DNA of 64,000 bases from NCBI RefSeq assembly GCF_009674675.1, contig NZ_WKJC01000001.1:310001-374000 (forward strand), written 5' to 3'. The position numbers were made by a program, and so were the translations under genes. The stretch is from Kangiella sp. HZ709. GTDB lineage: Bacteria > Pseudomonadota > Gammaproteobacteria > Enterobacterales > Kangiellaceae. Under the pieces are notes generated by a model. It was given only the letters and a program-made list of their open reading frames with translations, did not search any database and was not told where the DNA came from. The number at the start of each line of letters is the position of its first letter. Within the stretch, counting starts at the first letter, position 1. Positions 34,329 to 64,000 of the stretch are shown here, one piece after another.

Positions 34329-34898
34329 ATGAAATACACCGTTGAAGAATTACTCCAGTTAGCTATCCGTGCTATGAATCAGTCACAAGATGATCATGCG
34401 TTGAATTATCTTAATCAGGCGCATGAACAAGATTCGGATAATGCATCTGTTAATTATTTATTGGCTGCACAGTTTGCGGAGATGGGCTTGTATGAGAAGG
34501 CTCTAGCCTCATTTGAAACTACTTTATCGAAAGAGCCAAATATGCATTACGCACGTTTCCAGTGTGGCTTATTGCAGTTAACGCAAAATATTATCGAGCC
34601 GTCTCGTGAGAATTTTGAGTATTTAACTCAGCAAGAAGATAACCCTGAGCTTGCACTGTTTGGCCGTGGGTTGATAAAGCTTATTGAAGATGACTTTGAA
34701 AACTCTAAGATTTTATTAAATGAAGGTAAGTCGATTAATACTTTAAACCCGGCGTTGAACAATGATATCGATAAAATTTTAACTCAAATCAATATTCACC
34801 TTAAAGGTGGCGATGCAGAGTCTGGGAAAGCTGCTGATGCTTCGAAAGGGCAGTCTTCGGTCTTTTTGTCGGCCTATCAAAATAACGATGACGATTAA
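34329..34898 (+). CDS. Small TPR-repeat protein
   Basis: A 189-residue helical protein with three or four TPR-like units: ALNYLNQAHEQDSDNASVNY, AAQFAEMGLYEKALASFETT and a following degenerate pair. The C-terminus is polar and ends in an acidic stretch (NNDDD). TPR proteins are protein-binding scaffolds, and class II chaperones of type III secretion are TPR proteins. With a giant substrate upstream and an export apparatus downstream, a chaperone role is plausible but unproven. I chose ATG 34329 (MKYTVEELL) over the upstream TTG 34263, since the extra 22 residues look non-coding; neither start has a good Shine-Dalgarno. Confidence 0.78.
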   Translation: MKYTVEELLQLAIRAMNQSQDDHALNYLNQAHEQDSDNASVNYLLAAQFAEMGLYEKALASFETTLSKEPNMHYARFQCGLLQLTQNIIEPSRENFEYLTQQEDNPELALFGRGLIKLIEDDFENSKILLNEGKSINTLNPALNNDIDKILTQINIHLKGGDAESGKAADASKGQSSVFLSAYQNNDDD

Positions 34899-34929
34899 TT
34901 AATTTACATGTTTGTTATGGAAAACAATT

Positions 34930-35286
34930 ATGGTTGATAAAATTAATCAAGCGACTTCTATACCGAAGTCGCGATCGGTAAAACGCTCAAAAGAATCGAA
35001 TCAAACTCAAAAACAAAATGGTTCTTCAGACGAAGAACTGCTGGACTCTCCTTTACTAGAAGGTGGAGTTAATCCATCAAAGAAATTACAACTATTAGTT
35101 GAAGAGCAGGGCGTTGATGTCGCTCGAAGACAATTAATTCGTGAGATCCTATTGGAAAAATTTGGTTCTGAGTTAACGAGTAGCGCTGAGTTTGAGCATT
35201 CTTTAGAAAAGTTGAATCAACGGATTGAATCTATTCCAGAGCTTAAAAATGAATATGATAACTATTTGTTAAAACTTAAAACCTAA
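34930..35286 (+). CDS. Small protein of unknown function next to fliA
   Basis: A 118-residue protein from the ATG at 34930. The upstream frame opens at TTG 34912, but GGA before 34930 and the sequence MVDKINQ favour the ATG. The first 45 residues are Lys/Ser/Gln-rich and probably disordered; the rest is predicted helical (LQLLVEEQGVDVARRQLI, then FEHSLEKLNQRIESI). I do not recognise a family. A disordered N-terminus plus helical C-terminus, and a place tail-to-tail with the sigma gene, resemble the layout of an anti-sigma factor such as FlgM, but there is no clear sequence match. It lies 31 bp after the TPR gene, probably cotranscribed. Confidence 0.7.
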   Translation: MVDKINQATSIPKSRSVKRSKESNQTQKQNGSSDEELLDSPLLEGGVNPSKKLQLLVEEQGVDVARRQLIREILLEKFGSELTSSAEFEHSLEKLNQRIESIPELKNEYDNYLLKLKT

Positions 35287-35289: not shown

Positions 35290-35988
35290 TTATGGTTCTA
35301 GGTAAGCCTCTTTGAGTTTCTGAATGGCCAGTTTGTGCATTTGCGAAACTCTACCTCTGGTTAATCCAAGGTGTTCTGCAATTTCAACAAAGCTCCACTG
35401 ATAATAATAATGGTATTGGATCAAGATTTTCAGTGGCCCCTCTAAACTATCAATAATACCCAACAGTTGCTTTTTAAGCTGCTCAAACTCCATGCTATTA
35501 TAGGGAGAATGGGTGACTTGATTGATTAGATAGAAATTCTGATCTTCTAATAGCTCTAATAGATATAAATCTACCGTTAATTCTACGATTGCTTCGGTTG
35601 GATTCTTTTTATGGCGATTTATAAAAGAAATAAACTTACTGGTTTCTGCTTTTCTGATCTGATTTAAGTGATGTGTCTTTTCAGTAAAAGTAGCTACATT
35701 ATCTAATATTTCACCTTTTAACCGCTTTATGGCAAATGCTTCGAACGGAATTTTTAGATCGCTATTATAGCGTTCGATAGATTCTAATAAAGCAATGGTG
35801 GCATAGTGGATATAGTCTTTTAGATCCGAACCATTAACCCGATACTTGTTATATAAAAATTTAGCTTCAGACACAGACCATTCAGCATAAACATCGAAAA
35901 GTTTATGCTTAATCTCTACGGTAGGGTTCTCTTTCCATTTAGTCCAAAGCAACAGCTTTGGACAGCTCTCATCCTTTGGCATCGTCAT
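35290..35988 (-). CDS. fliA: FliA-like sigma factor (sigma-28 family, divergent)
   Basis: A 232-residue alternative sigma factor. Region 2 is recognisable (LKDYIHYATIALLESIERYN and FEAFAIKRLKGEILDN); region 4 ends the protein with a helix-turn-helix (WSFVEIAEHLGLTRGRVSQM). FliA proteins normally have a DxLR motif after the region 2 KGxxxD; here the sequence is LDNVATF, so -10 recognition may differ. FliA directs RNA polymerase to late flagellar genes, but no filament or chemotaxis genes exist here, so its targets may be the two giant RHS genes. The start overlaps the fliP stop by 4 bp (ATGA). It is the last gene of the flagellar run, tail-to-tail with 34930-35286. Confidence 0.85.
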   Translation of the reverse strand: MTMPKDESCPKLLLWTKWKENPTVEIKHKLFDVYAEWSVSEAKFLYNKYRVNGSDLKDYIHYATIALLESIERYNSDLKIPFEAFAIKRLKGEILDNVATFTEKTHHLNQIRKAETSKFISFINRHKKNPTEAIVELTVDLYLLELLEDQNFYLINQVTHSPYNSMEFEQLKKQLLGIIDSLEGPLKILIQYHYYYQWSFVEIAEHLGLTRGRVSQMHKLAIQKLKEAYLEP

Positions 35989-36734
35989 TGAAAACTTGTA
36001 ATTAAAGATCCTGCGATGAGTGTCCAGCCATCAATTAATACAAACATTAATACTTTCATCGGTAACGATATGGTCATTGGCGGAACCATGATCATACCGA
36101 GTGACATCAATGAGCTTGCCACCACTAAATCTATTAATAAAAACGGCAGGAATAGGACAAAAGCTATTTTAAATGCGGTTTTAAGCTCGCTAATCATAAA
36201 TGCCGGTATTAATTGCTTTAAGCTAACCTCATCAATCGAGTTCGGCGCTTCTTCACCGGAGATATCAATAAATAGTGCTATAGAGGATTCATCCGTTTGG
36301 CTCGCCATAAAGCGTTTTAAAGGGGCTACGCCGCGATCAAGAGCTTCTTGTGTGGTGATTTGATTTTGCGAATAGGGATCGTAGGCTTCTTCTTTTATCT
36401 TCTGAATGGGCTCCGCCATAATGAAAAAGGTCAGAAACATGGATAACGCTATTAGTACGTTATTGGGCGGTGTTTGTTGCATACCTAATGCGAATCGCAA
36501 CATCGATAATATAATAATGATCCGAGTGAAGGATGTAACCGCAATAAGTAGAAATGGAATAAAAGATAAAGCAGTTAAAAAGATAACCAGCTTTAAAGGT
36601 GTACTTATGCTATCAAAGCTGGAATTCAGCAATGAATCCAAATCACTGGTAGTCGGCAAGCTAGTTGCCATACTTTCAGGTGAAAAAAATAGTCCTAACA
36701 ATGCGAGTATTGTTAGCAAAGATTTACTTTTCAT
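35985..36734 (-). CDS. fliP: Flagellar type III export gate protein FliP
   Basis: A 249-residue protein with a cleavable signal peptide (about 1-23) and four transmembrane helices, as in FliP. Family landmarks are intact: SFTRIIIILSMLRFALGMQQTPPN, FLTFFIMAEP, PLKRFMASQT, LIPAFMISELKTAF and SLGMIMVPPMTISLPMKVLMFVL. FliP forms the core of the FliPQR gate through which unfolded substrates cross the inner membrane. Length and motifs are fully conserved, so the export channel is under normal constraint. It overlaps fliA by 4 bp and follows fliO by 1 bp. Confidence 0.97.
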   Translation of the reverse strand: MKSKSLLTILALLGLFFSPESMATSLPTTSDLDSLLNSSFDSISTPLKLVIFLTALSFIPFLLIAVTSFTRIIIILSMLRFALGMQQTPPNNVLIALSMFLTFFIMAEPIQKIKEEAYDPYSQNQITTQEALDRGVAPLKRFMASQTDESSIALFIDISGEEAPNSIDEVSLKQLIPAFMISELKTAFKIAFVLFLPFLLIDLVVASSLMSLGMIMVPPMTISLPMKVLMFVLIDGWTLIAGSLITSFQ

Positions 36735-36735
36735 T

Positions 36736-37071
36736 TTAGTCAGTCTTTTTATTATCGAGAGTATTACTCAAATCCAAGAGGTGATTGCCATTGTCCATAA
36801 TCAAATATTCTTTATTCATATATTGATAGTGAATCAAAGATGTATTTTGACTTAACTTACTTCGATGCAGAACCTTAAGAGATTTATCCTTGCCTTGTAT
36901 GCCATAGGGCTTGATAAGGCCAAATTTCTTTAGCAAAAGCAAAATTGCTACATAGGCAATGATCAGCCCCATCAGCACTAGAAATATATAACCAATATAA
37001 CTAGTCGGAAGTGTCTCTGCAGAGCGAAACAAAGGCTCTTTTGGTACAGCAGTCAGTAACGAAAAAAACAT
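36736..37071 (-). CDS. fliO: FliO-like flagellar biosynthesis protein
   Basis: A 111-residue protein with one transmembrane helix (about 26-47, YIGYIFLVLMGLIIAYVAI) followed by a short basic cytoplasmic domain. Its size, topology and place between fliN and fliP identify it as FliO, the assembly factor for the FliP ring; FliO sequences are poorly conserved. It abuts fliN directly and fliP by one base, so all three are translationally linked. Confidence 0.8.
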   Translation of the reverse strand: MFFSLLTAVPKEPLFRSAETLPTSYIGYIFLVLMGLIIAYVAILLLLKKFGLIKPYGIQGKDKSLKVLHRSKLSQNTSLIHYQYMNKEYLIMDNGNHLLDLSNTLDNKKTD

Positions 37072-37377
37072 TTAGTTTGCAATCTCCGTCACTTCAACAC
37101 CAAAGTTTTCATCAACAGCGATTAAATTGCCTTTAGCGATAAGTTTGCCATCAATAAATAAGCTAATAGGAGTATTGATTTCTTCGTTTAGCTTTATTTT
37201 GCTGCCTTGCTTTAAATTAAAAAGCTCATCTACAGATAATGTGCTGGTGCCTACTTGAGCGGTTAGCTCGACGTCGACGTCTTTAATTAAGTTAATATCC
37301 ATGGAGACTATATTTCCACCTTGTTTGCTTTCTTCTTGAGATTCAAGTTCTATCTGTTGTAGGGTTTCTTCGCTCAT
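37072..37377 (-). CDS. fliN: Flagellar C-ring protein FliN
   Basis: A 101-residue protein consisting mainly of a SpoA/SwrC domain: VDVELTAQVGTSTLSVDELF, then LKQGSKIKLNEEINTPISLF and ending GNLIAVDENFGVEVTEI. FliN forms the base of the C-ring and docks FliH/FliI for substrate delivery to the export gate. Export function alone would still need FliN, which fits its retention when the torque parts of the C-ring are lost. It is shorter than E. coli FliN (137 aa), with a brief acidic N-terminus. Start ATG at 37377; it follows the FliM-like gene by 8 bp. Confidence 0.92.
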   Translation of the reverse strand: MSEETLQQIELESQEESKQGGNIVSMDINLIKDVDVELTAQVGTSTLSVDELFNLKQGSKIKLNEEINTPISLFIDGKLIAKGNLIAVDENFGVEVTEIAN

Positions 37378-37385
37378 AAGATCCT

Positions 37386-38123
37386 CTAAGAAACTAAAAT
37401 TGATTTATGATGCTGATCTTTGCCAAGATTACACTTAGCAATTTCAACGGAATTCTCAAGCCTTAAATTTAACGGCTCAAATATTTTATGCTCTAGCTTT
37501 AAAACATCGCCCACACTAAGACTAAGAGTGTCATTGACCTTGATAGTGGTATTGTTCAAACTGATATTAATATTAATGTCTTGTTTGCCCAAAGCACTTA
37601 TCGCTTTAACCAAAGGCTTGTTGTTAGTTTGCTTTGAAAATTTAGCGGCCAGCCAATGGTTTGGTAGTTGGATAAATAAAGATTCATTATCTATTTTAAG
37701 TTCAAAATACCAGCTGATGAAGTCATGAGAATCTGATTTGCTTTCTATGGTGCAAGTTGTAATGTCCAAACTGGTTATCGTGGCCATTAGATCTTGTAGC
37801 ATGCTGCTAACAATTTCATCGGTGTATTTGGACTCTTTGATTTGTTCTGAATCAGAAGGAACCAATTTACTTAATAACAAGCTTTTGCAGTCAGCAGAAA
37901 ATACAATGCTATTAGCAGAAGCATTAGTTTTATAATGCCATATGCTACTGCTATTACTAATAGTTGCTTTGTTTACTATTGCCAGCTCATAATCCAGCGT
38001 TATAACGTTGCCTGCCGAGTCACGCAATAACCAATCTTTAAACAAGTTCTTGACTGGTTCTGAAACTTCCTTGAGCAAAATTTCTTTGTGATTATCACTA
38101 AGAAAGATAATAGGGGAGCTCAT
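37386..38123 (-). CDS. fliM: Reduced FliM-like / SctQ-like protein with C-terminal SpoA domain
   Basis: A 245-residue protein from the ATG at 38123, which has GGTGG 9 bp upstream; an in-frame TTG at 38159 would overlap flgE by 32 bp. The last 75 residues form a SpoA domain (INISLNNTTIKVNDTLSLS ... VEIAKCNLG). The place before fliN is that of fliM. However, typical FliM is about 330 residues, starts with an EIDALL CheY-binding motif and has a GGxG motif for FliG contact; I see neither here. The architecture is closer to the SctQ proteins of injectisomes. It probably builds a C-ring or pod with FliN that serves export rather than rotation. Confidence 0.7.
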   Translation of the reverse strand: MSSPIIFLSDNHKEILLKEVSEPVKNLFKDWLLRDSAGNVITLDYELAIVNKATISNSSSIWHYKTNASANSIVFSADCKSLLLSKLVPSDSEQIKESKYTDEIVSSMLQDLMATITSLDITTCTIESKSDSHDFISWYFELKIDNESLFIQLPNHWLAAKFSKQTNNKPLVKAISALGKQDININISLNNTTIKVNDTLSLSVGDVLKLEHKIFEPLNLRLENSVEIAKCNLGKDQHHKSILVS

Positions 38124-38127
38124 AACA

Positions 38128-39309
38128 TTAGCCACCCGTATTACTGTATAGCTGCTCAATCATTTGATTGGCCACATTCATAACTCTTGAACTAGCTTGA
38201 TAACCGCGCTGAACAATAATCATATCCGCAAACTCTCTTGCTAACTCAACGTTTGATAACTCAATACTGCCAGGAGCGATGCTACCAAAGACATCTTCTC
38301 CGGGTTCGCCCATTTGAACATCTATGGCTGAATTTGCAGAAAAGCGATAACCATCAACTTGATTTAATGCATTTTCATTTTGGAAAAAAGCCAATGCCAG
38401 TTGAGCACCGGTTTCTTCTTCGTCATTTGCGTAGCGAATAATAACTTCGCCTTGTTCATTGAAATTAATGCTAACAAATGGCTGGGCCGCATTACCGTCT
38501 TCAATTGTTGCAGATGCAGTTGAAACAGTTCCGCCTGAGAAAGAAGTAGTAGAGGAAAAAGAGCCTGGCTCACCAAAGGACAGCGAGACGTCCATAGCGG
38601 TACCTAATGTTCCATTTATATCGGCTGGTATAGTTAAGTCAACAGAATTAAAACCATCTAATAAAGTTCCATCAGGACCGAACCTAACTTCTCCATTCCC
38701 AATCACGCGGCCATTTTCGTCTGTAACTTCTACTAACCAGTTGCCTGCGGTATTAGCTGTATCGTTAGTGAAATTAAAGTTAACTAAGATTTCTTCGCCA
38801 ATTTCATTAAAAACTCGAATATCATTAATTTGATGTGCGTCGTCACCAGTTGATAAGTTACCTTCAAAATTAATTTGAGAGGTTACCTCTGGTGGCAAAG
38901 TTAATAGATCTTGAACATTAATTTCAGTCAAAACGCCATTCTCATCAAAGCCCATAACTCTAGAATCAGAATTTTGGTCAACAAGAACGCCATCATTATC
39001 GAATGTAAACTGACCGGCACGAGTATAGAAGTACTCTCCATCCTTCTCTAGAATAAAGTAACCTTGGCCTGAAATAGCTAAGTTAGTACCATTACCCGTT
39101 TGACGGATGTCACCAGATTCAAAACGTAAATTTTGATCTAAAATTTGCGGGCCAATGCCTACGCCTCTTGAGTTAATAAGGTTGCGATAAAAAACATCAC
39201 TACCTCTAAAACCAGGGGTGTTCATATTCGAGATATTATTACTGATAGTATCTAAGTTTCCAGAAAAGGTTAGCATTCCGGATAGTGCTGTAAAGAAAGC
39301 TTGAGACAT
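38128..39309 (-). CDS. flgE: Flagellar hook protein FlgE
   Basis: A 393-residue hook protein, close to E. coli FlgE (402 aa). The conserved N-terminal rod/hook motif is present (FFTALSGMLTFSGNLDTISNNISNMNTPGFRG), as is the repeated-fold segment GQGYFILEKDGEYFYTRAGQF. The C-terminal helical motif is LANVEL-like (IELSNVELAREFADMIIVQRGYQ). FlgE subunits polymerise into the curved hook outside the outer membrane after export through the apparatus. It implies an extracellular tube. No filament-junction genes (flgK, flgL) follow it in this window. It is 4 bp after flgD. Confidence 0.96.
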   Translation of the reverse strand: MSQAFFTALSGMLTFSGNLDTISNNISNMNTPGFRGSDVFYRNLINSRGVGIGPQILDQNLRFESGDIRQTGNGTNLAISGQGYFILEKDGEYFYTRAGQFTFDNDGVLVDQNSDSRVMGFDENGVLTEINVQDLLTLPPEVTSQINFEGNLSTGDDAHQINDIRVFNEIGEEILVNFNFTNDTANTAGNWLVEVTDENGRVIGNGEVRFGPDGTLLDGFNSVDLTIPADINGTLGTAMDVSLSFGEPGSFSSTTSFSGGTVSTASATIEDGNAAQPFVSINFNEQGEVIIRYANDEEETGAQLALAFFQNENALNQVDGYRFSANSAIDVQMGEPGEDVFGSIAPGSIELSNVELAREFADMIIVQRGYQASSRVMNVANQMIEQLYSNTGG

Positions 39310-39313
39310 CGGT

Positions 39314-39715
39314 TTACTCCTGTGAAATTATTTGTCTAATTTGGCTAAGAGGAATGTCGTTAACAAACTCTCCTGCAGAGGTTTCTAGACGAAATCTGGG
39401 ACCTTGTTCAGAGAAGGTAACGGCTTTAATTACACCATCGATATTCCCTAAATCAACTCTCTGGCCTAATAAACTTGATGCTTGGCTAGAAGCAGTGGTA
39501 AATAGTAGGTTTTCAATATTTTGACTGGTTTGTCTTGCTTGTTCTAAAGCAGAGAACTGTGCCATTTGTGCCAAAAACTCGCTGTTATCCACCGGCTCTA
39601 ACGGATCCTGATAGGTCAGCTGCGCGAGAAATAGCTCAATAAATTCTTGTTGATCAATATTGTTATTTTCGTTCTGTTGAGTCTGAAAGACGGTACCAAT
39701 TGATTCTATGTTCAT
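39314..39715 (-). CDS. flgD: Short hook-cap protein FlgD
   Basis: A 133-residue FlgD, compared with about 230 residues in E. coli. The conserved N-terminal half is intact (QQEFIELFLAQLTYQDPLEPVDNSEFLAQMAQFSALEQ), followed by TTASSQASSLLGQRV and a short beta segment. The usual Ig-like and Tudor-like C-terminal domains are largely missing. FlgD is exported and caps the growing hook so that FlgE can be added. The short form resembles those of some Gram-positive species and may still be functional. Its start overlaps the fliK stop by 4 bp. Confidence 0.9.
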   Translation of the reverse strand: MNIESIGTVFQTQQNENNNIDQQEFIELFLAQLTYQDPLEPVDNSEFLAQMAQFSALEQARQTSQNIENLLFTTASSQASSLLGQRVDLGNIDGVIKAVTFSEQGPRFRLETSAGEFVNDIPLSQIRQIISQE

Positions 39716-40557
39716 TTGACCTTCCTATATGTTGTTCCATTAATAATCACTTTCGTTTGTTTATTAATAGATTCTTGTGTATTTAAAAATTCTTGGGCAG
39801 TTTTTGCTAATTGTTCTTCTTGTTGCTGACTTAATCGATAATCTCTTAACAACAAAATATTGTGATCTTTTGCTTCAATAAAATTAAAGTTTTTTGCCAT
39901 GATTTTTTGATTGCTCAGAGAAGACTTATAAAGCAAGGCTTCTTGAGATTCATTCAATTCAAAATTAACTTTGCTATTAGTTTTAACGTTACCACTGGCG
40001 AATTGCTGGTTTGTAGGCTGAGTCACTTTGCTTTCGTTAGGCAGTGATTTCCCTGGCGCCGGATAGGTAGCAGAGTAAGAGTGAGTTACTTTCTGATTAG
40101 ATTCAGAAGTCGTATTTGAAGCTATATTACCCACTAAAGATGTATTAAATTCATTTTTAAACGATAATGAGCCTAAAGCGAAAGCTGTTAGCGGCAAGAC
40201 TTTTTCATTTGCTGTTTTCTGATTTAGGTATTGCTCGGTGCTCTCTAATTGATTTAGATTAGAATCGGACTGCGCATACTTTTCTTCACTTATTGCATGG
40301 ACCTCATCTTGTGACAGAATGTACTGAAGCTCTTCCTCTTGCTGAAGATCTTCGATATCTTGCTGTTCATCGGCAAGCATATTTAAATCTGTATTTTCTT
40401 TAAACGTATCAGGCATCATCAAGTTGTCAGTTTTATCACCCATATTTTTTTCATTCAGCAGCTCATCAAATGTCCTATCAAGTTGCTCTTTTACACCTTG
40501 AGTCTTATTTTGAGTTTGCAGAGACAATGAGTTTATTAAGTCTGTTAAGTTAATCAT
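39712..40557 (-). CDS. fliK: FliK-like hook-length control protein
   Basis: A 281-residue, Gln/Glu/Asn-rich, mostly disordered protein. Its place between fliJ and flgD and a C-terminal segment (ILLLRDYRLSQQQEEQL and VIINGTTYRKVK) fit FliK, the exported ruler that measures the hook and switches FlhB specificity. FliK is poorly conserved outside its C-terminal core, so identification rests mainly on position and composition. It overlaps fliJ by 8 bp and flgD by 4 bp. If the machine has no filament, the switch may be to another late substrate class. Confidence 0.72.
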   Translation of the reverse strand: MINLTDLINSLSLQTQNKTQGVKEQLDRTFDELLNEKNMGDKTDNLMMPDTFKENTDLNMLADEQQDIEDLQQEEELQYILSQDEVHAISEEKYAQSDSNLNQLESTEQYLNQKTANEKVLPLTAFALGSLSFKNEFNTSLVGNIASNTTSESNQKVTHSYSATYPAPGKSLPNESKVTQPTNQQFASGNVKTNSKVNFELNESQEALLYKSSLSNQKIMAKNFNFIEAKDHNILLLRDYRLSQQQEEQLAKTAQEFLNTQESINKQTKVIINGTTYRKVK

Positions 40558-40999
40558 TTAAGTACCTATTAGATTGCCATTGCTCTTGCAACTTAGAATC
40601 TTCGTTTTTATTGAGCATCTCAATCTGTTTTTTTCTTTCGTTGTTCGCTAAATTTGAATATAGCTTTTCTTTTTTATATTCACTTGCCACTTCAATTTTG
40701 AGGCTTGATTTTTCTTTTTCTACAGCAATCAATTTCTGTTGTAAATTAGCTATATTTTTTTGCACTATAGTAATAGTCTCTGATTCTGCTAAATACTTGG
40801 TGCTATCAATTACAGCTGAAGAGACTCTTGTTTCTCTAATTTTTTGATACATGCTTTTAAGTGAGACTTCTTCATCTGCGATTGATTGCTTAATATTCTT
40901 AATTTCATGATTGATAGCATCTAATTTTTGAGCAACCAAAAGTTTTTTATTGTTTTTAATCTCAGATAACGTATCCAGGCTTTTTATATAGCTATTCAT
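40550..40999 (-). CDS. fliJ: FliJ-like export chaperone / ATPase stalk
   Basis: A 149-residue, highly charged, almost fully helical protein with long heptad stretches (IKNIKQSIADEEVSLKSMY; IANLQQKLIAVEKEKSSL), the coiled-coil layout of FliJ. FliJ acts as the central stalk in the FliI hexamer and links it to FlhA. Sequence is poorly conserved, but size, coiled coil and position right after fliI are decisive. Overlaps the fliI stop by 4 bp. Confidence 0.85.
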   Translation of the reverse strand: MNSYIKSLDTLSEIKNNKKLLVAQKLDAINHEIKNIKQSIADEEVSLKSMYQKIRETRVSSAVIDSTKYLAESETITIVQKNIANLQQKLIAVEKEKSSLKIEVASEYKKEKLYSNLANNERKKQIEMLNKNEDSKLQEQWQSNRYLND

Positions 41000-42345
41000 A
41001 GATTACCTTCGAGTAAATTATACTTTCTCAATATATTTTTTAATAACACGATTAAGTCAGCATATTGAGTAACTTCATCAGAATCCTGTTTTAAAAAGGA
41101 TTCAATTTCCGGATAAGCTTTTATAACATTATCTAAATATACGTTTTTACCTTCTTCATACGCGCCAATATCAACCATATCCTTAATCTGTAAGAATTCA
41201 GAAATCACTTTCAAGCCATTATTTATAAGCTTAATATGCTCTGCATCTACCACCTTACTGGCTAAACGGCTACTACTTTGCTCAACAGATATAGGAGGGT
41301 AATGACCTTTATTGGATAGTTTCCTATCCAACATGATATGTCCGTCAATTAACGAACGCATGCTATCCGAAATCGGCTCGTTAAAATCATCGCCTTCTAC
41401 TAAGACTGTATAGATTGCAGTAATAGAGCCCTTATCTTTGAAGTTGCCAGCTCTTTCCAATAGCGGAGGCAGGTTCGAGAACACAGAGGGCGGGTACCCT
41501 TTTGTAGTAGGGGGTTCGCCGACTGCTAAACCAATCTCTCTTTGCGCCATGGCAAATCGCGTTACTGAGTCCATAACAAGCAGTACATCTTTTCCTTGGT
41601 CTTTAAAAAACTCGGATATGGATAACGCAGTAAATGCTGCATGGGTCCTTTCTAAAGCAGATTGATCTGATGTAGAAGTGATTATCACAGATCTAGCTAA
41701 ACCATCCTCACCTAAGTGGTCAGTTAGAAATTCATTAACTTCTCTTCCTCGCTCACCAACTAAGCAAATAACGTTAACATCAGCCGTTAAGTTTTTCGCC
41801 AGTTTACCTAAGAGAGTACTCTTGCCAACGCCGCTGCCAGCGAAGATACCAATTCTTTGTCCTAACCCAATTGGTGTGAACATATCAATCGCTTTTACAC
41901 CTGTTTCGAGTAGTTTATTAATAGGGGAACGCTCCAAAGGATTCGTTGGTTTTGTATAGAGAGGATATTCTGTAGCGCTTTCTAATTTGCCTTTATGATC
42001 AATTGGTTTACCAAAAGCATCGACTATTCTTCCAAGTAGGCTATTAGAAACTTTGACACTAGAAAGTTGACCTGTTGCAAATACTTTAGAGTTGATGGAT
42101 ATGCCTCTCAATTTAGAGTAGGGCATTAATAATGAACGGTTGCTCTTAAAACCTACGACCTCAGCCTTAATTCGCTCTCCTTGGCTAGAAACTATATAAC
42201 AGAGCTCACCTAAACGAACATCAATATTCGTAGCCTCAATGATGCCACCATAATATTGATATACTGAACCAAAAGAATCATAAAAGGAATGATTCGTTGC
42301 TTCAATTTTTAAATCGTTTAGAAGTGCGCTAATTTCAGCCATCAT
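40996..42345 (-). CDS. fliI: Flagellar type III export ATPase FliI
   Basis: A 449-residue F1-type ATPase. The Walker A loop AGSGVGKST lies at 169-177, with the preceding IDMFTPIGLGQRIGIF. The Walker B region DVLLVMDSVTRFAMAQREIGLA and the SYPPSVF-like segment (KGYPPSVFSNLPPLLERAG) are intact, as is ISVEQSSSR near the end. FliI unloads and unfolds substrates at the gate. Catalytic motifs are complete, which supports an active exporter. It overlaps fliH by 11 bp; two ATGs (42345, 42342) are possible starts. Confidence 0.97.
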   Translation of the reverse strand: MMAEISALLNDLKIEATNHSFYDSFGSVYQYYGGIIEATNIDVRLGELCYIVSSQGERIKAEVVGFKSNRSLLMPYSKLRGISINSKVFATGQLSSVKVSNSLLGRIVDAFGKPIDHKGKLESATEYPLYTKPTNPLERSPINKLLETGVKAIDMFTPIGLGQRIGIFAGSGVGKSTLLGKLAKNLTADVNVICLVGERGREVNEFLTDHLGEDGLARSVIITSTSDQSALERTHAAFTALSISEFFKDQGKDVLLVMDSVTRFAMAQREIGLAVGEPPTTKGYPPSVFSNLPPLLERAGNFKDKGSITAIYTVLVEGDDFNEPISDSMRSLIDGHIMLDRKLSNKGHYPPISVEQSSSRLASKVVDAEHIKLINNGLKVISEFLQIKDMVDIGAYEEGKNVYLDNVIKAYPEIESFLKQDSDEVTQYADLIVLLKNILRKYNLLEGNL

Positions 42346-43048: not shown

Positions 43049-43391
43049 AATCGTGTTGCTCCATCTGGAAAAGTTGCTGCTTGACTTTAAACGAGGGAAC
43101 ATAGTCTGCTTTTCCATCTAGGCAATACTCAATAAGCTCTTTAAATTCAGGCTGAAAGCTAGGTGAACTGATTTTAGTTAGTAAATCCAGCTCTTGTTTG
43201 CTATAAGACAAATACCTGTCAATAACAAGATCAGTTAACTTTGTATCTGCTTTATCTGATATAGCAGACAAAGCAGAGAGATGGCTGCGGATTTCAGAGA
43301 CTTCATTTTCATTTAATTGGTGTAAAAGCCAAGATCTATCTTCTTCAGAAATAGACCATAACTTTACAGCTATCTTCTTAAACTTACTCAT
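43026..43391 (-). CDS. Mini-FliG-like protein (FliF-binding domain only)
   Basis: A 121-residue protein at the exact fliG position between fliF and fliH. Residues 6-45 (KIAVKLWSISEEDRSWLLHQ then LNENEVSEIRSHLSALSAIS) follow the pattern of the FliG N-terminal domain, which binds the FliF C-terminal tail. Typical FliG is about 330 residues; here the middle domain with its EHPQ motif and the C-terminal domain with the charged torque helix are absent. It could attach the FliM-like/FliN ring to FliF without allowing stator-driven rotation. The homology is by pattern and synteny, not certain. Its start shares one base with the fliF stop. Confidence 0.7.
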   Translation of the reverse strand: MSKFKKIAVKLWSISEEDRSWLLHQLNENEVSEIRSHLSALSAISDKADTKLTDLVIDRYLSYSKQELDLLTKISSPSFQPEFKELIEYCLDGKADYVPSFKVKQQLFQMEQHDYGQDNDR

Positions 43392-53857: not shown

Positions 53858-53860
53858 CGT

Positions 53861-55703: not shown

Positions 55704-58700
55704 ATGGATAACATCATCGTCGCCTCTGGGTTAGGTTTATTCAATTCATCTTTATCCGCTTTAGGTCAATCCAATTCATCGTCGTTAGGACAAGCCGGTT
55801 TAGCGGCTTATATTAATGCCCGAACAGGTAACCTACACCTTAATCAATCCGATACCTCATTGGTGGGCTTAGGTATTGATGCAAGCGTTTTGCGCAGTTA
55901 CAACTCGCAAGGTTTACTGCAAGATGATAATGGGGACAATTGGCAGTTTGGGATCGCTCGTTTAAATGGCATTAACAACGGTAATTGGATAAAGCGTGTT
56001 TCTGGTGACGGTGCTGAAATAACTTATACCTATAATTCCAGTAATGCCCGTTATGAAAATACCGACGGTAGCGGCGCTCACGATTACATGACTTTCAGTG
56101 GCGGTGTGGCTAAGTGGTTCCTTGATGGGGATACCGGCTTAACTGAAGAGTACAATGCGACGGGGCAGTTACTCAGACAAAAAGATCGCGACGGAAACGT
56201 GACCAACTTTGCCTATAATAGCTCAGGCAACATTCTCACCATTCAAAATTCAAGTCAAACGCTTCGATTTAGTTATTCAGGTAGTAAGGTCACGTCGGTT
56301 CGCAGTGAAACGTATACCAGCAATAGCACTGGAACAGCACTTAACTCAACGGTGGTTCGTTATCAATACGATTCTAGCAACCGTTTATCGAAGACCATTA
56401 TTGATTTAAGCCCTGAAAATAATAGCACTACAGACGGCAATACCTATAGCACAACTTATACTTATGACGGCAGCAGCAAACGAGTCGCCTCGGTTACACA
56501 AAGTGATGGTACTTCGGTTAATTTCACCTATCAACTGCACTCAGGAAGTTACAAAGTTAAAACCGTCAATTACGGCAACGGTGAAAATTATACTTATAAC
56601 TACGGCCTAAGCAATTCCAATGGTGCCTATACCCAAGTCATTAATGGTGTTGGGCAAAACACATTGTATTTCCATAATGCAGACGGTGAGTTAACCCGGG
56701 TTGAAAGTCCAGCCATTAACGGGCAGCGTCTAGTCACTAAATACACTTATGACAGCGCTGGCAATGTGATTTCTGTTATTGACGCTGAGAATAAAACCAC
56801 CAGCTATCAGTACGACAGCAAAGGCAATCGAATATTAGAGCGTGATGCCGCGGGTAATACGGTCAAACGAGCTTATAATAGCAAGAATCAACTGATCGCT
56901 GAGACGGTTTACTTGGTAGCCGATCCCGATGGCTCAGGCTCAGCTCAAGCCTCCTCGCCGATAACGGTTCGTTACATACGCGACAGTGAAGGTCATGTAC
57001 GTTTTGTGATAAATGCCGAAGGCGAGGTTACTGAAAGTCACTACAGCTCAACGGGGTTGAAGACTAAACAATACCGCTATTCGGGCAACGCTTATAATAT
57101 TTCTGGTTTGTCGGAAACTCAAGCTCCCAGCTTATCTCAGATGACCAACTGGTTAGGCGGCATAGATAAGAGTCAAAGTTTATTGACTCAGTATCTATAT
57201 GATTTCAGAGGGCAGCTGACCAGCAGTACAGCTTACACAACTGTCGACGCGAATGGTAACGGTGTGTCATCCACGGCAGCAAAGACGAGTTATGTCTATG
57301 ACTATATGGGACGTTTATTAGAAACCATTACACCTCGTGGTAATGCAACTTCAACGGCTAATGATTACCGCACTATGTTGTCTTATGATGGTCTTGGACG
57401 AGTGATATCAACGACGGATGCTGATGGCAATGTGAGCAACATCCAATATGTGTCGAGTCAAAATAAAGTGGTAAGTGTGAGTGCTAATGGGCTCTATTCA
57501 ACCAATGTCTACGATGCTGGTGGCCGACTGATCAGTAGCAGCGAGTCCAACAGTGCGAGTGTCAGCGATAATTTAGGCAGCACCCAATATTATTACGATG
57601 AAGCAGGGCGTTTGAGAGCTACCAAAAATGCTGATGACTCCATCAGTTATGTCTTTTATGATGCCGCCGGTCGAGTCAGTGCACAAGTAGACGGTTCAGG
57701 CTCCGTGGTTGAGTTTATTTATAATAAGCGCGGCCAAATTACTCAAACCAAAGCTTACGCGAATGAAGTGAACACCAGTAGTTGGTTGAACGCTTCTACT
57801 GGAGTAGTCGCCCACTCCACGTTTGATGCTATCCGCCCGGCAAACCACTCCGATGATCGAGTCACTCTTAACACCTATGACAGTGCTGGCCGTTTAACCT
57901 CTTCTAAAGATGGTGAGAATGTCACCACAACCTATCAATACGATGGCGCCGGACGATTAACTAAAACGCAAACGGCAGATCGTTTTAGCCGAAGCTTTTA
58001 TGATAAAGCTGGCCGTGAGGTTGCCATTTTAGATTCACGTGGCGCATTAAGTGAAAGCTTTTATAACGAAGCAGGGCAGCTGATTAAAATGGTGGCCTAT
58101 GCCAATTTCACTCCGGCTGCGCAGCGAGCCAACGGTACCTTATCACAACTACGTCCAACGGCTAACGCAGCTCACGACCAAATAACTCGCTATTATTATG
58201 ACGACAAAGGGCAGTTGATTGGTGAGTTGAACGCGAACCGTCATTTTACGGAAGTTACTTACGACCGAGACGGTAACGTGACACAGCGAAGAGCTTATTA
58301 TAACTCCTCTAACGGTACAATAACCGATAACACCAGCTTCAGTAGTGTGCGTCCAGCAACGAATGTTAGAGATCAAGTTTCGAGTTATCAATACGATGAG
58401 CTCGGCCGTTTAAGCCAAGAGACAAACCATGAAGGAACAACGACGAGTTACCGTTATGATTCGGTCGGGAATGTAACCAAAGCGCAGATAGCTGATCGTC
58501 GCAGTTACTCAGCATATGACGAGAAGGGACAGCTAACCCATAGTGTGAATGGTTTGGGGTCCCATCAGCTGGGGGCTAATGCTTCAGAGTCTCAAATTCA
58601 GAGTAAGGCCGACACCCATGGCATACGTTTTATTTATGATGAGATGGGGCGTGTAGTAAAAAGCATTAATGCCATTGGTGCACAAACTTTGTATTTTTAC

Positions 58701-61700
58701 GATACTGATGGGAATGCAGCCATCACGGTTGATGCAGAAGGTGGCGCCACGGTCAACGAATACAATGCGTTTGGCGAAGTAGAAAGCACGCGCATGTATG
58801 CCAAAGCGATATCCTTATCGGGTTTACAAGGCGGTTCTATCACCAGCACTTTACTGTCGCGCTTAAATACGGCTAGAGATGATGCAAAGGATAGTTACAC
58901 TGAGTTTAGATTCAATGCTCGTGGCGAGCTGGAGAAAGTACTTAACCGAATCATCAATAACTCCGGGGCTACAAGCTGGTATGAAACAGTTAATGAATAC
59001 AATTCTCATGGAGATTTAACCCTCACGACACAAGATAAGGCAGCTGGCGATACGTCAAAAACCGAGTACCTTTATGATAAAGGTGGCTTAGTTACCGGGA
59101 CTAAATCCTATTCAACGGGTGGTAGCTTTTATCAAGATGAAAGCGTGTACGATGCTTTTGGCCGTTTAGTCGAATACTATGACAATACCCAAAATAGCGT
59201 GGTTGAGCGCCATTACGATCGGTTAGGGCGTGTGATTGAGTTGGTGGATGCCGAAGGCGGCACATCGATTAAAGCCTACGATGCCTTCAATCGAGTGGTC
59301 TTTAGTGAAAACGCTCTGGGCGATGAAACCTTATATTATTACAGTGACAGTAATCGCAGTTTTGTAGTTGAAACTCCCAATGGACGTGAAACCACGACCT
59401 ATCGTAATGCCCATGGCCAAACCGTAACCATCGAAGACTCCAATGGTAATGAAACGAATTATAACTATGACCTCAATGGCAATGTTGAGGAAATTGAGAA
59501 TGCGTTAGGGGAAATTGTTGATCAACAATTTGACCAAGCAGGTCGTTTAATTGCTAGCTGGGATAATAGCGGTGTTAAAACTGAATACAGTTACGACCAA
59601 GTAGGTCGCTTGTTGACTCAGGTGGTTGATCCTAATGGCTTGGCAATTACCACTAGCAGTAGTTTCGACGCTAAAGGTCAGATTTTAACTTCGACGGATC
59701 CACGCGGCATTGTCACTCAAACTCAATACGACACTTTGGGGCAAGTGGTAGAGATTATCCGTGATTTGGGTGGGATGAATGTTACCACCCGTTTTGAATA
59801 TAACGGTTTAGGCAACCAAACACGGGTGATAGAAGCGGCTGGCAGTGCTTCTGAGCGTGTGACGGAATATGTCTTTGATGACCTGGGGCGCAGAATAAAA
59901 AGCATTGTTGACCCTGATGGCTTAGCGTTAACGACCGAGTACAGTTACGACGCCAACAGCAATGTCTCCGAATCGATAGATGCCAAGGGAGTGGTGACTC
60001 GTTATGAATATGATGGCAATAATCGTCAAGTAAAAGTGATTCAAGATTTTGGTGGTCTAAACCTGACAAGTCGAACTGTATACGATGCACAAGGGCAGGT
60101 CACCAGTCGTTTCGATGCTCGTGGTGTTGAAACCCGTTATGAATACACTCCTGATGGTTTGTTAGTTAAACAAACCCGAGACTTTGGTGGATTGAATTTA
60201 ATCACTCAATATGAATACGATGGTAATGCGAATCGTATTCGGATGACTGATCCTAAAGGGGTAAAGACTCGCTATTTTTACGATGATGTTAATAGGGTTT
60301 TTAAAACGGTGCGTGATGAAGGTGGTTTAAATAACACCACTTTGACCTCGTATGATGACAGTGGCAATGTGACTAAAGTGACCGACGCAAATGGCAATGC
60401 AAGCCATTACGTATACGATAACTTGAATCGTGCTCGGTTTGCCATTGATGCTAAAGGTTTTGTTACTGAATCTATTTATGATGAAGCCGGGAATTTAACT
60501 GAGAGACGTGCTTACCAATCACCAGTACAAACAACTGGCAGCTGGACAGAATCTCAATTAGCAGCGTTATTATCCGGAGTTTCAACAAATAATTTTGTAG
60601 AGGATTTTAGTAATTTAAACAATACAAAATTTAACTTTAGTGCTATTGGGAACTCTCAAGGGACTATAACTCATGCCAATGAAACAATAGTCTTCCAGAA
60701 TAAAAACGCTAGCACGGAAACTCGTTATTCATTAAGTAGAAACAGCGGATATTTATTATCTGAAGGTTATAATACAAGCTTTGACATTTCGACGAGCAAC
60801 CTTGATCAAGGCATCGACTTTAAAGCATTACTTAAAAATGCAAATTCTAGTTTTTTCTATGGTTTTGAAATAAAAACTCCTCCGCCAATAGGTCCAATCG
60901 ATCCAATCGATCCAATCGATCCAATCGATCCAATCGATCCAATCGATCCAGGTCCGATTGATCCTGCAGACCCAATAATAATTGGTCCTGGGGGTGACTT
61001 GTTAACTCCAAGTTCAACACAATCATCGCCTGAGCTACTGTCGGCTCGCTCTAGCAGCAATACTAGATTAGTAATGCTTGATTTTATTTCTTCTGAAGAA
61101 ACTTCTCGTAACTTCTTGGCCAGTTTGCAAAATGATAAAACTTATACAGTAGAAATAGAAACGTCTGCAGAAAAAGTTACTATTTATGTATATGAAAAAG
61201 GTACTTCGCGAGAAAGTGGCTTTAGAAACTTTATTACTTTAAATTCTGATACAGTGGGAGAAGTTAAATTTGAAGCTTCAACAAGCGCAACCCCCGACCT
61301 TGGAACCACCCTGTTAGGGTATGGCTCTATCAGTTTAGATAACTACTCTGAACAGCTTAGCGCTATAGAATATAGCCAACAAAACTTTGCATATGACGCT
61401 TTAGGAAGAAATACTTACTCCACTAATGCCGAAGGGTTTGTCACTAAAAACACCTATGACCGACTTGGCCAGATGGTAAAAACGGAACGTTTTGATAAAG
61501 CCGTTAATCATTCAACACTACGAACTGAACATGATTTTGAAGTGGCTTTACGAACAACTTGGTCTCAGGACTTTTCGGAAGGTGTATCCGGTTTTGGGCA
61601 TAATCTTAGTTCTCATCCGCACTTAGTATACCAAAAAGATAGTCAAATAGTTTTTGATCGTGAGCATCATGCTACTAATACTTGGCCTGGAATCTATCAA

Positions 61701-64000
61701 AACACCTGGAATGATTATGAGGCGGGCATAGGCTATAGAATAGAAGTAAACACAAAAGATTTAGGGGGCGAATATCTATCAGTCGCCATGGATAATAATA
61801 AATCTTATGGGGATGCTTTATATAGAAGGCATAGAGCGCACTTTGGCAACGGTGGTATCAGTGCAATTAATAGAGCAAACGCTACCACTTCGTCTGTATC
61901 ATTAGGTCAATCAAAAGCTAACACAAGCTATATTGTTGAGTTTGAAACGTTTGAATACGTGACCCGCCTTTATATTTATGAAAAGGGCACCAATAGAAAT
62001 GATGGTTACTCGCATGAGTTTGCAGGCGGTGATTGGGATAAGATAAGAATTAGAGCATTCACTCATGGTGGCCCTAATATATCCGGTGCCCCAATATCAT
62101 TAGATAATATTCATGAATACAGGCTTGCTGCTGAATTACCGTCGTCCGTAGAAACAGAATATGTGTACGATAATGCTGGTAGGTTAGCCTTCTCTAAAGA
62201 TGGTGAAGGTAATCTGACCCAATATCAGTACGATGCCAATGGTAATTTAGTCACTAAAATACAACATGGCTCTTTTGATATTAATAATGCAAGCATTAAT
62301 AGTGACTTATCTAAAAACTACAATACACCCGATAAATTATCTGCTTGGCAGGTTTATGATGCCGATCCTGTAGGCGCAACATTTAAAACAGTGTTCGATG
62401 AAGAAAAGGATCAGTATGTAACGGAATTAACAGGCGCCGCTACAGCAAACGGTTACCGCTTATGGAATGAAACGATAAACGCTAAATTTAGTCAAGGAAA
62501 AATAAGCGACATCAGTTGGGACATGAAATATGGAGAAAACTTCACTATATATATCAGTGTTCAAACAACAGAAGGGCACCGTTATATCTATTACACGCCT
62601 ACTGAAGGTAACTCGAGCATATCCAACGGTTATATTCTACATCGCATTGGTACTGATATTAAAGATGGGACATGGAGAACTATAACCAGAGATTTAGAGG
62701 CGGACTTAAAGGCACTAGAACCTGATAATGAGCTACTAAACGTCAATGCGTTCTTGATCCGTGGTAGTGGACGAATAGGCGAAGTTAAATTACATGATAG
62801 TGCAGAATCAACTTTAGAGCGCTATCAGAAGTTAGTTGATACAAATTCTATTAATCCAGATTTGGATACAAAGAATACCATTCGCTATGTATACAACAAC
62901 CTTAATCAAGTTGAATATACTGTCGATGCTCGCGGCTATGTTACGCAGAACATCTACGACTTCTCAAACCAGATGATTGGTACTCGCCAATATGAAAGGG
63001 CAATTAATCCTGATGCTGTATCAACGATAGATGATGTACAAACTGCTTTAAGAACATTAAATCATAATACTTTCGAACAAGGTGTAAGTGGTTTTAACAG
63101 TAGTATTAATACGCATCCAAACTCTTTAAAAGAAGAAAATGGAAGGATAGAGTTTGCTCGTGCATTAAGAGCAACGGGCGATACAACAGCTAATGCAACA
63201 GTTTCTTTATACGAAAGTTATGAAACCTATGAAAATGGAACAGGCTATAGAGCAGAAGTAAGCACCACAACGTTTGATAATCAATATTTTTGGATAACGA
63301 TAAACAACTCGGGTTCTAGCGCCGATCATAAACGCTTAGGTTTGTATTTACGAAATGGGGTAGTCAAAGGCTATCAAAGAGAAAACAATGTTTCTCCATA
63401 TACCACTCTTGGTAATTTAAAAGAACATACAACTTATGTAGTTGAGTTTGAAATGCATGGCGACAAAACCGTTGCGTACATGTATGAAAAAGGTACTTCT
63501 AGAGAAGATGGGTTTGTTCATGAAATGGAGTCTGAGCCTTGGGGAAATGTACGCTTTTGGGCATACACTTATACGGGGCCAACTCACGAAGGCACAGGAT
63601 CAATATATTTAGATAATTTCAGTGAGTATGCGCTTAATGATAATTTATCAAAGTATAAGGAAAATCGTTATGTATATGATGATGCTGGTCGCTTAAGATT
63701 TAGCATTGATTTTGAAGGTTACGTGACTGAAAACGTATTAGATTCAAACGGAAATATACTTCAAGTAAAAAAATATAGTAAAGCTGTAAATAAGGAACAA
63801 ATAGCGAACGAAGCTGATGTTTATAGAGCTTTGCGTAGTACATGGAGTCAAAACTTTAATGATAATCTGAGTGGCGTGTCGTTATCATTAGGTGGTACCG
63901 ATGGTGTCAGACATGAAAGCGGAGAGCTTGTATTTGATCGAGGTGAGGACACCTCTCTTTCTGCTAATAAATCACCGCTAGCTTATCGTCCTTACGCAAA
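55704..64000 (+). CDS. Second giant RHS/YD-repeat protein, C-terminus off the window
   Basis: Open from the ATG at 55704 to the right edge: 2,765 complete codons, no stop seen. The N-terminus is paralogous to RHS protein 1 (shared GLxNSSLSxLGQS, LGQAG, LVGLGxDA, DDNGDNW) and lacks a Sec signal peptide. YD repeats run from about residue 170 to 1610. From there YD repeats alternate with non-YD modules: type A at about 1613-1888, 1946-2148, 2439-2648 and beginning again near 2706, and type B at about 2189-2366. The first type A module is interrupted by a Pro-Ile-Asp repeat. A weak GAG precedes the start codon. Likely a secreted or surface polymorphic toxin/adhesin. Its tip and any immunity gene lie outside the window. 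Confidence 0.93.
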   Translation, partial: MDNIIVASGLGLFNSSLSALGQSNSSSLGQAGLAAYINARTGNLHLNQSDTSLVGLGIDASVLRSYNSQGLLQDDNGDNWQFGIARLNGINNGNWIKRVSGDGAEITYTYNSSNARYENTDGSGAHDYMTFSGGVAKWFLDGDTGLTEEYNATGQLLRQKDRDGNVTNFAYNSSGNILTIQNSSQTLRFSYSGSKVTSVRSETYTSNSTGTALNSTVVRYQYDSSNRLSKTIIDLSPENNSTTDGNTYSTTYTYDGSSKRVASVTQSDGTSVNFTYQLHSGSYKVKTVNYGNGENYTYNYGLSNSNGAYTQVINGVGQNTLYFHNADGELTRVESPAINGQRLVTKYTYDSAGNVISVIDAENKTTSYQYDSKGNRILERDAAGNTVKRAYNSKNQLIAETVYLVADPDGSGSAQASSPITVRYIRDSEGHVRFVINAEGEVTESHYSSTGLKTKQYRYSGNAYNISGLSETQAPSLSQMTNWLGGIDKSQSLLTQYLYDFRGQLTSSTAYTTVDANGNGVSSTAAKTSYVYDYMGRLLETITPRGNATSTANDYRTMLSYDGLGRVISTTDADGNVSNIQYVSSQNKVVSVSANGLYSTNVYDAGGRLISSSESNSASVSDNLGSTQYYYDEAGRLRATKNADDSISYVFYDAAGRVSAQVDGSGSVVEFIYNKRGQITQTKAYANEVNTSSWLNASTGVVAHSTFDAIRPANHSDDRVTLNTYDSAGRLTSSKDGENVTTTYQYDGAGRLTKTQTADRFSRSFYDKAGREVAILDSRGALSESFYNEAGQLIKMVAYANFTPAAQRANGTLSQLRPTANAAHDQITRYYYDDKGQLIGELNANRHFTEVTYDRDGNVTQRRAYYNSSNGTITDNTSFSSVRPATNVRDQVSSYQYDELGRLSQETNHEGTTTSYRYDSVGNVTKAQIADRRSYSAYDEKGQLTHSVNGLGSHQLGANASESQIQSKADTHGIRFIYDEMGRVVKSINAIGAQTLYFYDTDGNAAITVDAEGGATVNEYNAFGEVESTRMYAKAISLSGLQGGSITSTLLSRLNTARDDAKDSYTEFRFNARGELEKVLNRIINNSGATSWYETVNEYNSHGDLTLTTQDKAAGDTSKTEYLYDKGGLVTGTKSYSTGGSFYQDESVYDAFGRLVEYYDNTQNSVVERHYDRLGRVIELVDAEGGTSIKAYDAFNRVVFSENALGDETLYYYSDSNRSFVVETPNGRETTTYRNAHGQTVTIEDSNGNETNYNYDLNGNVEEIENALGEIVDQQFDQAGRLIASWDNSGVKTEYSYDQVGRLLTQVVDPNGLAITTSSSFDAKGQILTSTDPRGIVTQTQYDTLGQVVEIIRDLGGMNVTTRFEYNGLGNQTRVIEAAGSASERVTEYVFDDLGRRIKSIVDPDGLALTTEYSYDANSNVSESIDAKGVVTRYEYDGNNRQVKVIQDFGGLNLTSRTVYDAQGQVTSRFDARGVETRYEYTPDGLLVKQTRDFGGLNLITQYEYDGNANRIRMTDPKGVKTRYFYDDVNRVFKTVRDEGGLNNTTLTSYDDSGNVTKVTDANGNASHYVYDNLNRARFAIDAKGFVTESIYDEAGNLTERRAYQSPVQTTGSWTESQLAALLSGVSTNNFVEDFSNLNNTKFNFSAIGNSQGTITHANETIVFQNKNASTETRYSLSRNSGYLLSEGYNTSFDISTSNLDQGIDFKALLKNANSSFFYGFEIKTPPPIGPIDPIDPIDPIDPIDPIDPGPIDPADPIIIGPGGDLLTPSSTQSSPELLSARSSSNTRLVMLDFISSEETSRNFLASLQNDKTYTVEIETSAEKVTIYVYEKGTSRESGFRNFITLNSDTVGEVKFEASTSATPDLGTTLLGYGSISLDNYSEQLSAIEYSQQNFAYDALGRNTYSTNAEGFVTKNTYDRLGQMVKTERFDKAVNHSTLRTEHDFEVALRTTWSQDFSEGVSGFGHNLSSHPHLVYQKDSQIVFDREHHATNTWPGIYQNTWNDYEAGIGYRIEVNTKDLGGEYLSVAMDNNKSYGDALYRRHRAHFGNGGISAINRANATTSSVSLGQSKANTSYIVEFETFEYVTRLYIYEKGTNRNDGYSHEFAGGDWDKIRIRAFTHGGPNISGAPISLDNIHEYRLAAELPSSVETEYVYDNAGRLAFSKDGEGNLTQYQYDANGNLVTKIQHGSFDINNASINSDLSKNYNTPDKLSAWQVYDADPVGATFKTVFDEEKDQYVTELTGAATANGYRLWNETINAKFSQGKISDISWDMKYGENFTIYISVQTTEGHRYIYYTPTEGNSSISNGYILHRIGTDIKDGTWRTITRDLEADLKALEPDNELLNVNAFLIRGSGRIGEVKLHDSAESTLERYQKLVDTNSINPDLDTKNTIRYVYNNLNQVEYTVDARGYVTQNIYDFSNQMIGTRQYERAINPDAVSTIDDVQTALRTLNHNTFEQGVSGFNSSINTHPNSLKEENGRIEFARALRATGDTTANATVSLYESYETYENGTGYRAEVSTTTFDNQYFWITINNSGSSADHKRLGLYLRNGVVKGYQRENNVSPYTTLGNLKEHTTYVVEFEMHGDKTVAYMYEKGTSREDGFVHEMESEPWGNVRFWAYTYTGPTHEGTGSIYLDNFSEYALNDNLSKYKENRYVYDDAGRLRFSIDFEGYVTENVLDSNGNILQVKKYSKAVNKEQIANEADVYRALRSTWSQNFNDNLSGVSLSLGGTDGVRHESGELVFDRGEDTSLSANKSPLAYRPYA
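60541..64000 (+). other. Alternating jelly-roll-like modules in RHS protein 2
   Basis: Four type A modules share the motif YxYEKGTSRE/TNR near their end, then W...R.xA..xxGP and a closing LDNxxEY (about 60541-61365, 61540-62145, 63020-63645, 63820 onward). One type B module at about 62270-62800 carries SWDMKYGENFTIYI, TITRDLEADL and FLIRGSGRIG. They are linked by one or two YD repeats each, so the shell segment is built of regular alternating units. A carbohydrate-binding fold is my guess from the beta-rich pattern. Confidence 0.6.
60894..60950 (+). repeat. 9-bp tandem repeat encoding (Pro-Ile-Asp)6
   Basis: The unit CCAATCGAT occurs six times without a mismatch (60894-60947) followed by CCA. 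Translated it is Pro-Ile-Asp six times, then more degenerate PxxDP units. Perfect DNA identity suggests slippage-driven length variation in frame. It sits inside a type A module, probably as an exposed loop or stalk. Confidence 0.95.

Follow-up and report, generated by a model that had tools for sequence, protein, structure and literature searches.

The stretch of DNA analysed here, a window of 64,000 nucleotides from the gammaproteobacterium Kangiella sp. HZ709 (contig NZ_WKJC01000001.1, positions 310,001 to 374,000), contains a run of flagellar-type rod, hook and export genes at positions 35290-54121, on the minus strand throughout, flanked by two giant RHS genes. We consider it likely that this run encodes a flagellum-derived type III secretion machine that lacks a filament, is unable to turn and exports giant RHS polymorphic toxins, whose targets are probably bacteria. 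The evidence suggests flagellar parts turned into a toxin-secreting weapon. The first-pass annotation, made from the letters of the window, had proposed a dedicated secretion machine of flagellar origin, and that proposal is now supported by the lack of flagellin, FliG_C and MotB plug matches in the genome and by RHS linkage in relatives; the RHS proteins are its putative substrates, a role deduced from sequence.

The run between the two giants is real: most of its genes match a Pfam family, and both flanking genes carry RHS repeats. Pfam matches were obtained for fliP, fliN, flgE, flgD, fliI, fliH, fliF, fliE, flgC, flgB, flgI, flgH, flgA, flgG, flgF, flhA, flhB, fliR and fliQ, spanning 35985-54121, and genes for the export gate, ATPase, MS ring, rod, P and L rings, hook and hook cap all lie in this one run. 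TPR genes adjoin the run at both ends, and the giant RHS genes lie beyond them on the plus strand. No secretin or needle gene is among the run's Pfam matches; the genome as a whole was not searched for secretins.

A variant FlhA and its linkage to RHS genes

Judged by its sequence, the FlhA of this genome (50000-52027, minus strand) belongs to, and is the founding sequence of, a separate clade spread across many gammaproteobacterial groups. FlhA had no match in 19 genomes of the same genus, and the cluster was therefore probably gained by horizontal transfer, as an island. Four genomes of the same family have a close FlhA (54-58% identity) plus one or two distant ones (37-41%). Among the best 80 loci in a scan of named genomes, at least 46 have 49-57% FlhA identity, in Dyella, Rhodanobacter, Oleiagrimonas, Lysobacter, Pseudoxanthomonas, Xanthomonas, Microbulbifer, Catenovulum, Pseudoalteromonas, Rheinheimera, Arsukibacterium, Grimontia, Vibrio, Hahella, Legionella and others. 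In phylogenetic comparison, a tree of 110 rows of FlhA, built by a quick method with midpoint rooting and comprising neither injectisome sequences nor that of L. enzymogenes OH11, resolved a single branch of 51 rows (SH-aLRT 100, stem 0.76), which holds all 50 rows labelled variant by score together with one truncated row. One FlhA from a metagenome-assembled genome labelled Rhizobium falls among Lysobacteraceae in the tree, pointing to a mislabelled bin or to transfer.

Gene order is nearly constant as far as the stretches from relatives reach: TPRb-fliQ-fliR-flhB-flhA-flgF-G-A-H-I-B-C-fliE-fliF, then a small gene followed by fliH-I-J-K-flgD-E-fliM-like-fliN-O-P-sigma. The exceptions are an unrecognised TPRb in Legionella and Catenovulum, an inverted TPRb at one locus (L031), and, in Pseudoalteromonas, a sigma gene at the opposite end; some of the run's small genes went unrecognised in genomes rich in G+C. 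The dN/dS ratio is below 0.29 wherever computable (at most eight genes, in five pairs of close relatives, with several dS values saturated), and the variant clade shows purifying selection in those relatives that were tested. The gene order, the separate clade and this selection led us to reject a decaying remnant. Chromosome 2 of Catenovulum sediminis carries two near-identical copies of the cluster.

The association with RHS genes was followed in 40 carrier genomes, namely this genome, the four from its family and those that contain 35 of the 46 named variant loci; the 11 loci left out are mostly on short contigs. RHS repeats occur in 39 of the 40 carriers against 2 of 14 control genomes, and 37 carriers have a match to residues 1-299 of the second RHS protein (RHS2). 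Such an RHS N-terminus lies within 50 kb of 22 of the 41 variant flhA loci and of none of the 37 other loci (every non-variant FlhA match in the 40 carriers); within 25 kb the counts are 19 and 0. Counted from the RHS side, 26 of 69 N-terminal places have a variant flhA within 50 kb, where 1.56 would be expected (Poisson 6e-23, an approximate figure that ignores contig ends and clustering). These 69 rows exclude three stronger than 4e-10, in which the N-terminus was missed or the gene repeated, as well as the weaker rows listed, one of which (in G073) does begin at query residue 20. In four genomes (G073, G081, G076 and G358) an RHS gene lies downstream of the sigma gene and is co-directional with it, separated by at most one gene; the stretches of G073, G076, G077, G069 and G081 were chosen for a nearby RHS gene.

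The two features also coincide in 369 genomes of the class drawn regardless of either. Four of them have variant FlhA (E up to 1e-165) and five have the RHS N-terminus (E up to 1e-15); all four variant-FlhA genomes, this one included, carry the RHS N-terminus. With this genome excluded, the RHS start is present in 3 of 3 variant-FlhA genomes against 4 of 368 overall (hypergeometric ~5e-7, calculated by hand), and in two of those three, FlhA and the RHS start lie on one contig, about 20 kb apart. The first-pass annotation had named conserved linkage to RHS genes in relatives as a check on its proposal, and such linkage recurs both at the loci and in the drawn genomes.

Several observations weigh against a machine that exports RHS toxins. 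Three of the 40 carriers (G085, G088 and G095) lack this RHS start; six named Legionella carriers have one shared-start RHS gene each, unlinked to the cluster; and the fifth RHS genome in the drawn set, G187 (L147, C372:4000-18983), has a shared-start RHS gene and no variant FlhA at E 1e-165. This last genome may hold a more distant exporter, or its assembly may have a gap.

Motility genes, RHS cargo and rival explanations

The genome (2.41 Mb in 11 contigs, listed as 100% complete) yielded no Flagellin_N, no FliG_C and no MotB_plug match, each search being positive in 4 of the 14 control genomes. The search for filament, rotor and stator genes elsewhere in the genome, suggested by the first-pass annotation, thus found no flagellin, FliG_C or MotB plug. 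That annotation had listed more genes as unseen in the window; their absence holds genome-wide for these three families, and FliD, FlgK, FlgM, FlgN, FlgJ, FliS, FliL and the che genes were not searched genome-wide. VipB, a component of the type VI secretion system (T6SS), is also absent from this genome, and it is present in 17 of the 44 genomes searched and missing from 27. Among the 40 carriers, flagellin is missing in 11 and FliG_C in exactly the same 11, ten of which have variant FlhA only, the other, a Lysobacter, having a second FlhA match at 37%. In the remaining 29, flagellin, FliG_C and a further FlhA are all present. In a MotB_plug search given 23 genomes, nine of the 11 flagellin-less carriers had no match, the exceptions being G088 (one match, 39.8 bits) and G092 (one below the cut-off, with a stop). 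Legionella maceachernii, a carrier, has neither flagellin nor FliG_C.

The first giant gene, RHS1 (14721-33881, plus strand), encodes 6386 residues starting MSATILSNDLGLINSSLSLLGQS, with RHS repeats followed by Ig-like (He_PIG, Big_9) repeats and LysM; its last 500 residues match no Pfam or NCBIfam family. RHS2 (55704-64000 in the window, plus strand) was correctly taken for an RHS gene at first, and its full length proved nearly twice what the window displays: it continues to window-equivalent position 71318 and encodes a protein of 5204 residues, with RHS repeats and a C-terminal domain of the Ntox15 nuclease family (E 2.7e-34). The gene that begins 5 nucleotides past its stop, outside the window, matches GAD-like (1.1e-33) and T6SS_Tdi1_C (4.6e-20) and, below cut-off, the NCBI TaeI model. 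By its domains and neighbour, RHS2 has the hallmarks of an RHS polymorphic toxin: RHS repeats, a C-terminal toxin domain and a downstream immunity-type gene. Relatives offer eight distinct RHS genes with a readable end (nine rows, two from one gene). Six are followed by an open reading frame (ORF) of 74-212 residues that starts -29 to +12 nucleotides from the RHS stop, one by a 487-residue ORF resembling a further RHS tail, and one by no ORF. A scan of four of these six small proteins gave SUKH-1 for two and no match for the other two, and none of six scanned RHS C-termini of relatives matched a family. Toxin-immunity pairs, among polymorphic toxins in general, indicate bacterial targets.

At the other end, a shared start (for example MVAVVAGNGLGLGNTSLTQLGQ) is found in 22 N-termini, in that of G187 and in three more, from Xanthomonadales, Microbulbifer, Grimontia, Vibrio, Catenovulum, Pseudoalteromonas, Legionella and the Kangiella family itself, a likeness that arises partly by construction, as the N-termini were picked by N-terminal similarity. 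No Sec signal is visible by eye in the shared-start proteins. A third RHS protein of this genome (2617 residues, minus strand, G000:C3:870001-890000, about half a megabase away) has a Sec-like start and lacks the shared motif. When the first 739 residues of RHS2 were compared with the PDB, the best stretch in the 11 matches, all Rhs or T6SS proteins, never began before residue 147. Microbulbifer sp. YPW16 has two RHS frames of 6113 and 6118 residues about 30 kb apart (G072:C1, ~1.85 and ~1.88 Mb); their repeat hits match, and they look like a recent duplication.

An ordinary second (lateral) flagellum with filament, stator and rotor genes elsewhere, the alternative offered by the first-pass annotation, would explain the rod, hook, rings and FliA-like sigma gene, and 29 of 40 carriers do own an ordinary flagellar gene set. 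In this genome, however, it fails on flagellin, FliG_C and MotB plug alike, the first two are also missing from 11 carriers, and the FlhA clade is separate; on these searches it was rejected, and we regard it as very improbable. A flagellar remnant, whether decaying or recruited elsewhere, for example to type IV pilus function, and placed only by chance beside RHS genes in a toxin island, would fit the probable acquisition of the cluster as an island and the fact that RHS genes are common in mobile regions. It would also fit the effect of Lysobacter enzymogenes export genes on twitching (PMC7277350). Against it stand a gene order that hardly varies, intact reading frames and purifying selection, the linkage at 22 of 41 loci against 0 of 37, the shared RHS start, and co-occurrence in drawn genomes even where the two features lie on different contigs; we hold it to be unlikely.

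About as unlikely is a reading in which T6SS, Sec or some other exporter releases the RHS toxins while the machine exports something else. The RHS core does resemble T6SS Rhs structures, the Ntox15/Tdi1 pair is known from T6SS by family name, and VipB occurs in some of the genomes searched; yet on its absence here T6SS export was rejected for this genome, 27 of the 44 genomes searched have no VipB, Pfam scans of RHS1 and of the window part of RHS2 found no PAAR or similar loading domain, and neither protein has a start that looks Sec-like, unlike the third RHS. The same machine and substrates could also be aimed mainly at eukaryotic hosts, prey or fungi instead of bacteria, which we find doubtful, if less so than the preceding readings. 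The Ig-like and LysM domains of RHS1 and the presence of Legionella and Lysobacter among the carriers favour it, as does the statement, in the introduction of PMC9927559, that secretion of antifungal toxins depends on the export genes of OH11. Immunity-type genes directly after RHS2 and after RHS genes in two relatives speak for bacterial targets, since such genes are expected if kin bacteria are among those attacked.

Genes of the run and its flanks

All genes from the sigma gene to TPRb are on the minus strand. A FliA/WhiG-like sigma factor (35290-35988) bears out the fliA-like gene that the first-pass annotation had read here. It is followed by fliP (35985-36734), a weak fliO-like gene (36736-37071; TIGR03500, E 0.0033), fliN (37072-37377) and a FliM-like gene (37386-38159) in which solely the C-terminal FliM/FliN domain is recognised, so that there is no full FliM. 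Next come the hook gene flgE (38128-39309), the hook-cap gene flgD (39314-39715), a gene in the place of fliK (39712-40557) that matches no family and is assigned by position and size, a weak fliJ-like gene (40550-40999; PF02050, E 0.013), the ATPase gene fliI (40996-42345) and fliH (42335-43117). The first listing of the run thus stands, with fliO and fliJ as weak matches and fliK placed by position and size; it is extended by a 121-residue gene in the position of fliG and by the TPR genes on both sides.

This 121-residue mini-FliG (43026-43391) resembles a FliG domain and lacks FliG_C, the torque domain being gone; by its sequence it seems to keep a ring anchor. The initial claim that the window has no full-length fliG or fliM holds, with the short FliG-like domain as a refinement. 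Beyond it lie the MS-ring gene fliF (43391-44767), whose product has a helix C-terminal to the last membrane segment that is conserved in relatives, fliE (44776-45072), flgC and flgB (45069-45859; flgB weak, at 19.7 bits against a cut-off of 20.7), flgI and flgH for the P and L rings (45870-47560), flgA (47550-48509), and the rod genes flgG and flgF (48509-49990). After flhA, the run ends with flhB (52029-53096), which keeps the NPTH site, and fliR and fliQ (53093-54121).

Adjoining fliQ, TPRb (54161-55285) encodes a 374-residue TPR protein with weak matches to type III secretion chaperones, far under cut-off. At the opposite end, on the plus strand, TPRa (34263-34898) encodes a TPR protein whose C-terminal tail is conserved among relatives, a candidate chaperone, and is followed, as in many relatives, by orf124 (34912-35286; likely start 34930). 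In many relatives the aligned orf124 begins with an MSxDRI-like motif reminiscent of FlgM; the protein could be an anti-sigma factor or a secreted regulator. Five nucleotides past RHS1, a 108-residue ORF (33887-34213, plus strand) is an immunity candidate by position; it matched no Pfam or NCBIfam family, and its single weak PADLOC match, to Csn2 (E 8.6e-4), is probably due to chance. Elsewhere in the window, three photolyase or photolyase-related genes are consecutive at 1573-6007.

Known systems and a proposed export route

An export apparatus without a filament is already known. In the non-flagellated L. enzymogenes OH11, which lacks flagellin and FliG, the flagellar export system is functional and exports heterologous flagellin and FlgD (PMC7277350, PMC9927559). 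The Kangiella genome likewise lacks flagellin and FliG_C; the OH11 genes, however, are described as retained flagellar genes, not as one operon, whereas here they form one run. Three other Lysobacter fall in the variant FlhA clade. In Myxococcales, a system without motility has been presented as an intermediate (PMC3459982). Flagellum-derived systems of this kind, for which protein translocation is proposed, share their origin and the loss of motility parts with the present one, which differs in keeping rod, hook, FlgH/FlgI rings and FlgA, in a run without secretin and in its presumed RHS cargo. With the bacterial flagellum it shares export apparatus, rod, hook and P/L rings, but not flagellin, FliG_C or the MotB plug. 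T6SS Rhs effectors (Tse5, Tse15 and Tre23 in the PDB) have in common with the RHS giants the RHS core, the variable C-terminal toxin and the adjoining immunity gene; the giants differ in their size and N-terminus, in having no PAAR or VgrG part found, and in a genome without VipB. Buchnera retains export and hook genes without a filament. Its filament-less hook-basal bodies, named in PMC13063649, are comparable as proposed secretion devices; they are described as arising by loss from an ordinary flagellum in endosymbionts, whereas the present system is a separate lineage, found in many groups and tied to toxin genes. Zhang and colleagues noted a gene of an RNase toxin family beside flagellar operons in Firmicutes (PMC3482391). 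The pairing of a flagellar-type run with RHS giants was not found in a search of the open-access literature.

In the proposed route, rod, P/L rings and hook would form a static tube across both membranes, fed by the export gate, the ATPase and a platform in which mini-FliG would anchor the FliM-like protein and FliN to FliF. From substrate recognition onward, we infer every step. The N-terminal motif would mark RHS proteins for recognition, with TPRa, TPRb and orf124 as candidate chaperones or regulators. The retained NPTH site of FlhB makes a switch to late substrates plausible, and after such a FlhB/FliK-type switch the RHS proteins would be the late substrates, replacing flagellin. The RHS shell would fold outside the cell, the Ig-like and LysM domains would hold a neighbouring cell, and the C-terminal toxin would kill cells without the immunity protein.

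On balance, and with less assurance than for the export of RHS toxins itself, we lean towards seeing here a third kind of functional machine derived from the flagellar export apparatus, next to flagella and injectisomes. It would be a static rod-ring-hook secretion system of Gammaproteobacteria, old and spread by horizontal transfer, which is dedicated to giant RHS toxins directed at other bacteria. It would have an N-terminal export signal, TPR chaperones and a sigma factor of its own, so far concealed by the flagellar names of its genes. Several carriers are environmental isolates, which makes the idea directly testable. If true, it would provide an export route for giant RHS proteins with neither a visible Sec signal nor an available T6SS, and a path from flagellum to toxin exporter on which the hook and the outer-membrane rings of the flagellum are retained. 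It would then be wrong to read the flagellar genes of bacteria without flagellin, among them some Lysobacter and Microbulbifer, as remnants.
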